DNA of 37,580 nt from Aneurinibacillus thermoaerophilus. Its GTDB lineage: Bacteria > Bacillota > Bacilli > Aneurinibacillales > Aneurinibacillaceae. The stretch's first letter is position 1, and each line of letters opens with the position of its first letter. The stretch is from NCBI RefSeq assembly GCF_900099925.1, contig NZ_FNDE01000035.1, forward strand, positions 1 through 37,580, read 5' to 3'. The position numbers were made by a program, and so were the translations under genes. Shown here one piece after another: positions 1-11,743 of this stretch. The notes beneath the pieces were generated by a model that saw only the letters and a program-made list of their open reading frames with translations, was not told the DNA's origin and did no database searches.

Positions 1-185
1 AGCTGGGTAGCCATGTGCGGACGGGATAAGCGCTGAAAGCATCTAAGCGTGAAGCCCCCCTCAAGATGAGATTTCCCACAGCGTAAGCTGGTAAGACCCC
101 TTATAGATGATGAGGTGGATAGGTTCGAGGTGGAAGCGTGGCAACACGTGGAGCTGACGAATACTAATCGGTCGAGGGCTTAACC
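1..185 (+). rRNA. rrl: 23S ribosomal RNA, 3' end (partial)
   Basis: This is the last ~185 nt of a 23S rRNA gene; the rest lies upstream of the window. It is recognised from the highly conserved domain VI end, including the stretch around 150-185 that finishes with GGTCGAGGGCTTAACC, the usual 3' terminus in Bacillales. The sequence just after it (about 205-240) resembles the spacer that normally leads to 5S in this group, but no 5S rRNA follows: a terminator begins about 60 nt later. The exact mature end is uncertain by a few bases. Confidence 0.95.
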
Positions 186-247
186 AAAGATAGACTGGAT
201 ATCCTGTGCGTCATGTTTCTTCTGATTCAGTTTTCAAGGTATAATAG

Positions 248-8730: not shown

Positions 8731-8979
8731 TTATGCTTTTTGCGTGGGTATTTCAGATATGCAGGAACCACAGATAATTTTTCCTTTGTACGTTATCGTA
8801 TTTTCTGTGCTTCCACAGAAGATGCAGGCTGGCTCGTATTTTTTTAACATGATGCGTTCGCCGTCAACATAAATTTCAAGAGCGTCTTTTTCTCCAATAC
8901 CCAATGTACGACGGAGTTCGATTGGAATTACGACACGACCTAATTCATCTACTTTTCTTACAATACCAGTTGATTTCAT
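8731..8979 (-). CDS. abrB: Transition-state regulator AbrB (zinc-tail variant)
   Basis: This 82-residue AbrB is a DNA-binding regulator that represses post-exponential genes. The N-terminal swapped-hairpin DNA-binding domain (residues 1-48, STGIVRKVDELGRVVIPIEL) is nearly identical to B. subtilis AbrB. The C-terminal half differs: where B. subtilis has a helical multimerisation tail, this one has two CxxC pairs (C52/C55 and C70/C73), suggesting a small zinc ribbon. The start ATG at 8979 has GAGGAG about 10 nt upstream. It diverges from metG. Upstream there is a sigma-A promoter followed by tandem Spo0A boxes in the B. subtilis arrangement, so repression by Spo0A~P is likely conserved. Confidence 0.95.
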   Translation of the reverse strand: MKSTGIVRKVDELGRVVIPIELRRTLGIGEKDALEIYVDGERIMLKKYEPACIFCGSTENTITYKGKIICGSCISEIPTQKA

Positions 8980-9027: not shown

Positions 9028-9089
9028 ATCGTCAAAATTCGACATACTTTCTTTATCACTATCCTAACAGCATTTTTCGATGAGGTCAA
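9028..9089 (-). promoter_or_regulatory. abrB promoter with downstream tandem Spo0A boxes
   Basis: On the minus strand, TTGACC (9089-9084) and TAGGAT (9066-9061) are 17 bp apart. About 10-15 nt past the expected start lie TGTCGAA (9044-9038) and TGACGAT (9034-9028), 10 bp apart. This matches the two 0A boxes that let Spo0A~P repress abrB in B. subtilis. Confidence 0.75.
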
Positions 9090-9370
9090 CCATTTACTGG
9101 GATTATACTATAAAAAAATCTCAATATATGTAAAAAAATACTAATAAAGGAAATATAGTGTTTAAAATGTAATATATGTATAAAATATATAACAGTATAT
9201 AAGACTGAATTTATTTTAAATTTATACCTTATTTTAAAATAATACAAAAATATTCTGTGAAATAGATAAATCTTGATGCAGATTTTTCGACAAAAACACA
9301 AACACTCGTAGTTATTAATTCGACAAAAAAGGGAATAAAAGGATAATATAGTGAGGGATTAACATAAGAC
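9090..9370. other. AT-rich abrB-metG intergenic segment with two perfect Spo0A boxes
   Basis: This non-coding stretch is strikingly AT-rich, especially 9105-9250, where runs of alternating A/T dominate. It has no plausible gene. It contains TTCGACAAAAA at 9286-9296 and again at 9319-9329; each is a perfect 0A box (TTTTTGTCGAA) on the minus strand, and the two are 33 bp apart, about three helical turns. Low-complexity AT DNA like this is also typical of AbrB-bound regions, but no AbrB consensus can be read directly. Confidence 0.65.
9319..9347 (+). promoter_or_regulatory. Candidate promoter with -35 inside a Spo0A box
   Basis: TTCGAC (9319-9324) and GATAAT (9342-9347) are 17 bp apart and read toward metG. 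The -35 coincides with the second perfect 0A box. This overlap is typical of promoters activated by Spo0A~P, but each hexamer alone is only a moderate sigma-A match. Confidence 0.4.
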
Positions 9371-9399
9371 TTGACGAAGACTGACAGGTAAGGTATAGA
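9371..9399 (+). promoter_or_regulatory. metG promoter (sigma-A)
   Basis: TTGACG (9371-9376) and TATAGA (9394-9399) are separated by 17 bp. The predicted start near 9406 leaves a short lead before the T-box Stem I. Confidence 0.75.
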
Positions 9400-9437: not shown

Positions 9438-9690
9438 TGCAAAACGATGATGGGAAGAGTAATCGCGTGTACTTTTTACAGAGAGCCGGGATGGGTGGAA
9501 ACCGGTAAAAGGAGCGGGATGAAGATGGCCCCGGAGTTTTTGCTTTCGAGCGCATGATGCGTTAGGGGGCAACGTTTCCCGCGTTACGGGATTGAGCCTG
9601 TCTTCTTTTGACTGGAAAGCTAGGAAGACAGGGAATTTGGGTGGTACCACGAGAGCTTCTCGTCCCATATGGGGATGGGGAGCCTTTTTT
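9438..9690 (+). promoter_or_regulatory. T-box leader controlling metG
   Basis: This is a tRNA-sensing T-box riboswitch. It shows the Stem I start with the AAGAGTA (K-turn/AG) region at about 9454-9462, the AGAGAGCCGG apical side near 9480, and a 3' specifier region. The near-invariant T-box GGGTGGTACCACG (9639-9651) pairs with the tRNA acceptor end and forms the antiterminator. A G/C-rich hairpin ending in six Ts (terminator, about 9655-9690) follows. A candidate Met specifier AUG is at 9519-9521 in GCGGGATGAAG. Uncharged tRNA-Met would be expected to allow read-through into metG. Confidence 0.93.
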
Positions 9691-9757: not shown

Positions 9758-11743
9758 ATGAGTAAACCAACGTATTACATTACATCACCGATTTATTACC
9801 CGAGCAATACGCTTCATATCGGAAATGCTTATACGACAATCGCCTGCGACGCGCTGGCCCGTTATAAGCGTTTACGTGGATACGACGTGTTTTATCTCAC
9901 AGGCACGGACGAGCATGGACAGAAGCTGCAGCAACGCGCCGCGCAGGAAGACAAGCAACCGTTGGAATTTATTGATCCGATTGTTGATTGGATTAAGGAC
10001 TTATGGGAACGCCTTGATATTTCCTATGACGATTTCATTCGTACTACCCAGAAGCGTCATAAAGATGCCGTGCAGAAGATCTTCCAAAAGCTTGTTGATA
10101 AAGGCGATATCTACCTAGGCGAATACGAAGGTTACTACTGTGTGCCTTGTGAAGCGTTTTGGACGGAGCATCAGTCGAAAAAGGATGGAGAACATATTTG
10201 TCCAGATTGTGGACGCCCAATTTCGCTTGTGAAAGAAAAAAGTTATTTCTTTCGTATGTCGAAATACCAAGATCGGCTTTTGAAATACATCGAAGAGCAT
10301 CCGGAGTTTATTCAGCCAGAGTCCCGCCGCAATGAGATGGTAAATAACTTCCTTAAGCCGGGTCTGGAAGACTTGAGCGTATCCCGCACATCATTCGACT
10401 GGGGCATTAAGTTGCCGAACGACCCTGAGCACGTTATCTATGTCTGGATTGATGCGCTGACGAACTATATTACCGCGCTAGGATATATGAGCGAAGATGA
10501 CACGAAATTTAACAAATATTGGCCGGCTGATGTCCATATGATCGGTAAGGACATTCTTCGCTTTCACACGATTTATTGGCCAATTATTCTAATGGCGCTT
10601 GACTTGCCATTACCGAAGAAGGTATTTGGTCATGGTTGGCTGCTTATGCCAGATGGAAAAATGTCGAAATCGAAAGGCAATGTTATCGATCCAAAATTTT
10701 TGATCGAACGTTACGGTTCCGACTCGATTCGCTACTTCCTGTTGCGTGAAATTCCGTTCGGTCAAGATGGCGTATTCACGCCGGAAGCATTTATCCAGCG
10801 TTTGAACTTTGATCTAGCGAATGACCTTGGCAATTTGGTGAGCCGGACGGTAGCGATGATTGAGAAATATTTTGAAGGCGTGCTTCCGGCTCCGACCGCG
10901 CCGGAAATGGTGGATGAAAACCTGCGCAATGTGGCGCGTCAAGCAGTTACTGGTCTCGAAGAGCACATGGACGAAATGCGGTTTGGCGGTGCGTTGAACA
11001 GCCTATGGGATCTGGTGAGCCGCACAAATAAATATATTGATGAAACAACGCCATGGGTGCTGGCAAAAGATGAAGCCAATAAAGAACGCCTTGGTACAGT
11101 TATGTACAATCTGGCGGAAAGCATTCGTATTATTTCTATTGCTTTGCAACCGTTTATGACACATGCACCGCGCAAAATTTGGGCGCAGCTGGGTATTACG
11201 GGAAATGAAGATATTACAAGCTGGGAGTCGGCAAAAGAGTGGGGAGCGCTTCCGGCCGGCATAAAAGTAAACAAGGGTGATGCGTTATTCCCACGCCTTG
11301 ATCTGGAAAAAGAAATTGCCGTTATTGATGAGACAACGGCAGCAGCGCGTAAACAGGCGGAAGAAAATAAGAAAAAGAAGGAACAGGCGCAAGCTAAAAC
11401 AGAAGAGAAGCCAGCCGTACCCGAAATCAATATCGATGACTTTATGAAAGTGGAATTACGCGTGGCGCAGGTTATCGAAGCGGAAAAAATTCCGAAAGCA
11501 GATAAATTGTTGAAGCTGCAACTGGATCTCGGCTATGAAAAACGCCAGGTCGTATCCGGTATTGCCAAGCATTACAGTCCGGAAGACCTTATCGGCAAGA
11601 AAGTGATCTGCGTCACTAACCTTAAACCGGTAAAGCTGCGTGGTGAAATGTCGAATGGAATGATTTTGGCCGCATCTGAAGGAGACAAACTCACTCTTGC
11701 GACCGTTCCTGACAGCATGCCGAACGGGGCGATTGTAAAATAG
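9758..11743 (+). CDS. metG: Methionine--tRNA ligase
   Basis: This 661-residue class I aminoacyl-tRNA synthetase charges tRNA-Met. The N-terminal catalytic Rossmann domain carries YYPSNTLHIGNAY (HIGH signature with Asn in the last position). A zinc knuckle has two CxxC pairs (CVPC and CPDC, residues ~127-150). WIDALTNY and KMSKSKGN (KMSKS loop, ~300) follow, then the anticodon-binding helical domain, and a C-terminal EMAP/Trbp111-like tRNA-binding domain (~555-661) joined by a Lys/Glu-rich linker. This layout matches B. subtilis MetS (~664). ATG 9758 is chosen because AAAGGA is 8 nt upstream; an in-frame ATG at 9749 lies inside the ribosome site. tatD follows after 29 bp with no terminator. 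Confidence 0.97.
   Translation: MSKPTYYITSPIYYPSNTLHIGNAYTTIACDALARYKRLRGYDVFYLTGTDEHGQKLQQRAAQEDKQPLEFIDPIVDWIKDLWERLDISYDDFIRTTQKRHKDAVQKIFQKLVDKGDIYLGEYEGYYCVPCEAFWTEHQSKKDGEHICPDCGRPISLVKEKSYFFRMSKYQDRLLKYIEEHPEFIQPESRRNEMVNNFLKPGLEDLSVSRTSFDWGIKLPNDPEHVIYVWIDALTNYITALGYMSEDDTKFNKYWPADVHMIGKDILRFHTIYWPIILMALDLPLPKKVFGHGWLLMPDGKMSKSKGNVIDPKFLIERYGSDSIRYFLLREIPFGQDGVFTPEAFIQRLNFDLANDLGNLVSRTVAMIEKYFEGVLPAPTAPEMVDENLRNVARQAVTGLEEHMDEMRFGGALNSLWDLVSRTNKYIDETTPWVLAKDEANKERLGTVMYNLAESIRIISIALQPFMTHAPRKIWAQLGITGNEDITSWESAKEWGALPAGIKVNKGDALFPRLDLEKEIAVIDETTAAARKQAEENKKKKEQAQAKTEEKPAVPEINIDDFMKVELRVAQVIEAEKIPKADKLLKLQLDLGYEKRQVVSGIAKHYSPEDLIGKKVICVTNLKPVKLRGEMSNGMILAASEGDKLTLATVPDSMPNGAIVK

Follow-up and report, generated by a model that had tools for sequence, protein, structure and literature searches.

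The repression of abrB by Spo0A~P is a textbook switch that releases the genes for sporulation, biofilm formation and competence. The window analyzed here, a stretch of 37,580 nt from Aneurinibacillus thermoaerophilus (NZ_FNDE01000035.1 of GCF_900099925.1, positions 1–37,580 of the forward strand), carries abrB on the minus strand and metG on the plus strand as divergent genes. A preliminary description of this DNA had noticed, besides tandem Spo0A boxes at abrB, two further exact boxes nearer to metG. It proposed that they bring metG, and probably tatD, under Spo0A or, alternatively, that they act on abrB from a distance. The question is which of the two genes these remote boxes serve, and how.

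The intergenic region between abrB and metG

The gap between the two genes contains, in order, the proximal operator, the inferred abrB promoter, remote boxes 1 and 2, the metG promoter and the T-box (Table 1). The N-terminal domain of AbrB matches the AbrB chains 1z0r and 1yfb (E ~1e-23), and the closest named relatives of MetG are found in Aneurinibacillus danicus (91% identity) and A. aneurinilyticus (89%). Spo0A is encoded in this genome, as indicated by its DNA-binding domain (PF08769, G000:C43:9431-9742, E 2.8e-45). At the contig edge, window positions 1-187 are the 3' end of a 23S rRNA gene (RF02541).

Table 1. Features of the abrB–metG region in the window
Feature	Position	Strand	Remarks
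abrB CDS	8734..8979	(-)	ORF 8731-8979 including stop
Proximal Spo0A operator of abrB (predicted)	9028..9044	(-)	Exact TGTCGAA box (plus-strand TTCGACA) 9038-9044, degenerate tandem partner ATCGTCA 9028-9034; downstream of inferred abrB promoter
Inferred abrB promoter	9061..9089	(-)	-35 TTGACC 9084-9089, -10 TAGGAT 9061-9066, spacer 17; sequence reading
Remote Spo0A box 1, TTTTTGTCGAA (predicted)	9286..9296	(-)	248 bp from proximal operator box
Remote Spo0A box 2, TTTTTGTCGAA (predicted)	9319..9329	(-)	281 bp from proximal operator box
metG promoter, conserved	9371..9399	(+)	-35 TTGACG 9371-9376, -10 TATAGA 9394-9399, 17-bp spacer
T-box leader of metG	9438..9670	(+)	RF00230, 112.4 bits (gathering 93), E 2.9e-24
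metG, methionyl-tRNA synthetase	9758..11743	(+)	Open frame

The 0A box consensus consists of a TGTCGAA core with a flanking T run, and both are exact at the two remote boxes. These boxes were confirmed as exact copies of TTTTTGTCGAA separated by 33 bp, start to start, and the window holds no other exact copy. The tandem 0A boxes described at abrB are also present, one exact and one degenerate. The whole genome contains 12 exact copies of the 11-mer compared with 14 of a reversed control word, so that the word is not enriched genome-wide; the chance expectation for two of the 12 copies falling within 44 bp is ~0.002 per genome (66 pairs x 88 / 3.66 Mb). Inspection by eye revealed no degenerate tandem partner beside either remote box, and no obvious sporulation target gene, among translated frames, at the other ten copies.

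The preliminary description had made its proposal depend on conservation among close relatives, and this was found. Both boxes, 31-33 bp apart, are kept in 8 of the 11 family members, namely all seven members of the genus (7/7) and one more genome, while three members of the window's own family are without an exact remote box. The proximal TTCGACA is exact at the aligned place in 10/11 family members, the sequence of L011 being TTCTACA. The block round the -35 of the inferred abrB promoter is conserved within the genus, and its counterpart in family f23 is TTGACA-17-TATGAT.

Several other elements were observed in these intergenic regions. In two Aneurinibacillus loci (L006 and L007) a hairpin, AAAGCCGA...TCGGCTTT in L006, separates remote box 2 from the metG promoter and could be the terminator of a small transcript. 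Upstream of metG in Bacillus loci such as L154 (G201) and L374 (G556), where no T-box antiterminator motif was seen by pattern, there is a GC-rich hairpin with a T run behind it (CTCTCGTCC...GGGCGGG(A/G)GCTTTTT). It may be what is left of a former T-box, or a leader of another kind. The abrB–metG regions of f23 have a GGATAAAAATTACTGG-like stretch on the abrB side of the remote boxes, kept in part of the aligned genomes, and a similar TTTACTGGGA block adjoins the abrB promoter in Aneurinibacillus. These stretches are possibly the site of another regulator.

Remote boxes upstream of abrB across the Bacilli

A remote box was defined as an exact TGTCGAA or TTCGACA, on either strand, 150-300 bp upstream of the proximal operator box. 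For the discovery set, abrB upstream regions were obtained from 121 genomes; the 99 with an exact TTCGACA no more than 110 bp from abrB were retained and the 22 without an exact proximal box were left out. Loci were drawn from larger collections of places (80 of ~155 listed places; 26 loci and 80 regions; 28 loci), and G098, G108 and G134, from a batch of 35 genomes, are without a locus. The discovery set is also without G114, the locus of which is incomplete, and G015, in which abrB was missed by pattern. A further set of 134 genomes was then used for a prediction that had been fixed before its sequences were read; 127 of them had an exact proximal box and were used, and 7 without one were left out. 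Of the 41 families in the further set, 8 also occur in the discovery set, so that the genomes of the further set are fresh and its lineages partly overlap.

A remote box was found in 65/99 discovery genomes, where 629 permuted 7-mers averaged 1.29 genomes and the top-scoring permuted word overlaps the Spo0A motif itself. G015 has abrB next to metG and a proximal box but lacks a remote one, and its inclusion makes the discovery count 65/100. The further set gave 108/127 genomes, with an average of 1.6 for permuted 7-mers, and 81/100 outside Paenibacillaceae. At the family level, one or more genomes with a remote box were found in 44/59 families that have a proximal box. When the discovery genomes were split by gene arrangement, the box was present in 59/79 with metG divergent from abrB and in 6/20 with abrB apart. 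An exact remote box is absent from 34/99 discovery and 19/127 further genomes. Spo0A was found in all 50 genomes tested for it, most of them chosen for the absence of a remote box; since all 50 have Spo0A, there is no contrast between the presence of the box and that of the regulator.

The layout of the boxes varies among lineages. Aneurinibacillus has a direct pair 31-33 bp apart, family f23 an inverted pair 19-22 bp apart in 24/25 genomes, and other families have one box or an array.

The genus of Bacillus subtilis is the one that includes G027, in which the N-terminal stretch of AbrB matches the structures 1z0r and 1yfb; 39/39 of its further genomes have a remote box, at 213-236 bp. In G556, which we take to be B. 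subtilis 168, the exact remote box, at contig positions 45,420-45,426, lies 229 bp from the proximal one. The remote site has the abrB-strand sequence TGTCGAA-TTT-TGTCGTA and is a tandem with the same 10-bp pitch as the proximal operator. Deletion of the proximal box alone relieves abrB repression in B. subtilis, according to the part of PMC9160880 that was available, so the remote site is not sufficient for repression.

Distance and helical phase

A restricted distance from the main operator and helical phasing are criteria for an auxiliary looping operator. The first was evident in the 226 genomes, the box profile of which contained 14 boxes at 25-150 bp, 334 at 150-300 bp and 20 at 300-700 bp, the last range being covered by fewer genomes and including some coding stretches.

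Helical phase was analyzed by scanning periods of 8-14 bp in the distances that separate the proximal box from boxes of the same orientation, with values merged family by family. The best period was 10.45 bp in the discovery set (R 0.45, n=38; phase 8.12 bp) and again 10.45 bp in the further set (R 0.25, n=81; phase 7.96 bp), with a concentration toward the discovery phase in the latter (p 0.001). The first box per genome gave p 0.00125. For the last box alone, the one nearest metG, the signal in the further set was weak (V-test p 0.023, uniform p 0.14, best period 9.65), and period scans with one box per genome in the discovery set were not significant (p 0.15-0.20). For boxes on the opposite strand, the discovery set lacked a period close to 10.5 (p 0.26), and the further set had its best period at 10.65 (p 0.004). 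The phase was lost when distances were taken to the abrB start codon, R being 0.085 compared with 0.30 to the operator at 10.5 bp. A null in which each family was shifted at random reached the observed value in 0.6% of trials (p 0.006). Spacings between neighbouring same-strand remote boxes were 10-12, 19-23 or 30-33 bp in 73/76 cases. The predicted mode of 217-222 bp was weakly reproduced, the fullest 5-bp bin of the further set being 215-219 with 9/81.

As judged from these sequences, the remote boxes are likely to be in helical phase with the abrB operator. The phasing is of moderate strength, some variants of the test not being significant, and comes from related genomes whose kinship was only roughly handled.

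Association of the boxes with abrB

In Paenibacillaceae, metG was absent within 1.5 kb upstream of abrB in 32/32 genomes, and the remote box was present in all 30 whose proximal box is exact and in the usual orientation (27/27 in the further and 3/3 in the discovery set). Within the further set, the check on metG as a neighbour covered Paenibacillaceae. Only 3/17 genomes outside Paenibacillaceae with abrB apart from metG have a remote box, indicating that the feature can be lost; in L195, the one of these that was read, a reading frame starts close upstream and perhaps covers the remote box. The promoters of abrB paralogs served as a control. None of 21 had a box 200-360 bp from the start codon and 5/21 had one box at 111-127 bp; 2/23 paralog loci that were not oriented were left out.

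By position, the boxes are associated with abrB rather than with metG. Of the two options in the preliminary description, the second, a remote action on abrB, has the better support, as both the distance and the phase to the abrB operator are kept across many families.

A predicted auxiliary operator of abrB

The two boxes are probably an auxiliary, remote Spo0A operator of abrB that strengthens its repression, plausibly through a DNA loop. Spo0A~P would occupy two places, the proximal tandem operator, a short way downstream of where abrB transcription starts, and the remote boxes, ~250-280 bp away and beyond the abrB promoter. As sporulation begins, the remote sites would make the repression of abrB stronger or sharper. 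This would most likely come about by a contact between Spo0A~P molecules at both ends that folds the promoter into a loop of ~24-27 helical turns; in a weaker version, the remote boxes would raise the local concentration of Spo0A~P with no defined loop. The occupancy of the remote boxes by Spo0A~P, abrB as their target and the formation of a loop are what we infer from the arrangement of the sites. Given the distance band, the phase and the proposal of a Spo0A tetramer and DNA loop in the part of PMC12090719 available, the simplest account would be that an auxiliary operator and the proximal one cooperate, plausibly by looping.

Alternative explanations

The possibility was considered that one array serves both divergent genes, Spo0A~P repressing abrB and tuning its neighbour, which is metG in many Bacilli and a gene for an HD-domain protein in at least one Paenibacillaceae locus. 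The array does sit between the two promoters in the layouts examined, and three lineages show an orderly spacing between it and the metG -35. In 24 f23 genomes the metG -35 is 41-137 bp from the remote box. In L250, the only Paenibacillaceae locus of this kind in which frames were read, the remote box is ~85 bp upstream of the neighbour gene, presumably the one for the HD-domain protein. However, pooled phase tests relative to metG were not significant (p 0.18 and 0.70), and the divergent gene varies while the position relative to abrB stays the same, which makes such a shared function rather unlikely.

A loop-free action of the remote boxes on abrB, in which they would serve as a reservoir of Spo0A~P, block transcription that arrives from upstream or keep the divergent promoters apart, is unlikely. 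The moderate phase signal would fit such an action, as would the need for the proximal operator in repression (PMC9160880, available part). It is opposed by the helical phase to the operator, which recurred in the further genomes and was lost for the start codon, and by the avoidance of distances below 150 bp, as a stiff loop would require.

Control of metG, and of tatD, by Spo0A~P bound upstream of the metG promoter and activating or repressing it in addition to the T-box is improbable. Its strongest form in the preliminary description was a second metG promoter, TTCGAC/GATAAT, with its -35 on the nearer box. The two hexamers are indeed on the plus strand at 9319-9324 and 9342-9347 with a 17-bp spacer, and the T-box leader downstream was confirmed; the promoter itself found no support and was judged not to be real. 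Among the eight family members with the box, the GATAAT -10 is unique to this genome, and no similar -10 was seen at spacers of 16-18 bp from the nearer box in the other seven. Furthermore, another metG promoter, TTGACG/T-N17-TATAGA, is invariant in 11/11 family members. Promoters of the spoIIG and spoIIE type are sigma-A promoters that are activated by Spo0A and overlap a 0A box; a conserved -10 properly spaced from the box, which defines them, was not seen in this family at spacers of 16-18 bp. Because the -10 is not conserved and the other metG promoter is invariant, an input to metG and tatD through a promoter on the nearer box is unsupported.

Some positions are compatible with a possible additional effect on metG. 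The nearer box lies 50-52 or 61-63 bp upstream of the metG -35, two classes one helical turn apart, in 8 members of the window's family, and 79-85 bp from it in 29 Bacillus genomes that match the promoter pattern. An exact box was also found within 1 kb upstream, in sequence that is part coding, of 5/20 metG genes with abrB at least 1.5 kb away or on another contig; the 20 are what is left of 22 after removal of G015 and G038, which have abrB beside metG, and one of them had 507 bases only. One of these, G031 (L090), has two TGTCGAA boxes 9 bp apart, at -102 and -93 from metG with abrB ~2 kb off, and a direct Spo0A input to metG is possible there. Against a general control of metG, the boxes are kept in Paenibacillaceae, with no metG inside 1.5 kb, and also in lineages for which a pattern search showed no T-box motif. 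Where the two genes are coupled, box distances to the metG start codon scatter with an SD of ~160 bp, compared with 30 bp for those to the abrB operator, and show no 10.5-bp phase.

Chance matches in AT-rich DNA, with which the lack of genome-wide enrichment of the 11-mer would agree, can be dismissed on the genome counts relative to permuted words and the 0/21 paralog promoters.

Relation to known systems and significance

LacI, GalR, AraC and DeoR use auxiliary operators with DNA looping. The predicted abrB arrangement resembles theirs in having a second operator at a restricted distance, helical phasing and sites that flank the promoter. It differs in that Spo0A is a response regulator, for which a tetramer and loop have only been proposed, and for the spo0A promoter (PMC12090719, available part). 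In the passages available from that 2025 modelling paper, the LacI-like tetramer with DNA looping is said to need more evidence, EMSA data are fitted better with four Spo0A~P on each box than with two, and the proximal boxes of abrB are reported to act by a roadblock-type mechanism.

The known abrB operator of B. subtilis shares with the window the motif, the gene and a proximal tandem box downstream of the promoter, as inferred in the window. However, the available parts of PMC12090719, PMC9160880 and PMC4366234 make no mention of remote boxes at 150-300 bp. The 0A1-0A4 boxes of the B. subtilis spo0A promoter are similar in being several and in having joint, non-additive effects (PMC12090719, available part), and differ in gene and arrangement. 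The metG gene of the window resembles other metG genes under T-box control in its leader, and its sigma-A-like promoter is invariant in the family, but no evidence ties the 0A boxes to the T-box system.

No description of a remote Spo0A site at abrB was found in the literature searched, which consisted of titles, openings of abstracts and passages from mostly open-access sources, so that earlier notice is possible. Auxiliary operators are known as a kind; their use by Spo0A at abrB would be new. More tentatively, Spo0A~P might be a DNA-bridging repressor, with an ancestral remote operator at abrB, its best-known target, ~15-28 turns upstream and in phase, that perhaps closes a loop round the promoter and sharpens the threshold of commitment to stationary-phase development across the Bacilli. 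If the remote sites do act on abrB, the accepted map of the abrB promoter would cover just part of its control region, and reporter fusions without the remote box would miss part of the abrB response. Whether Spo0A~P bridges DNA as a tetramer could also be tested directly at the remote operator.
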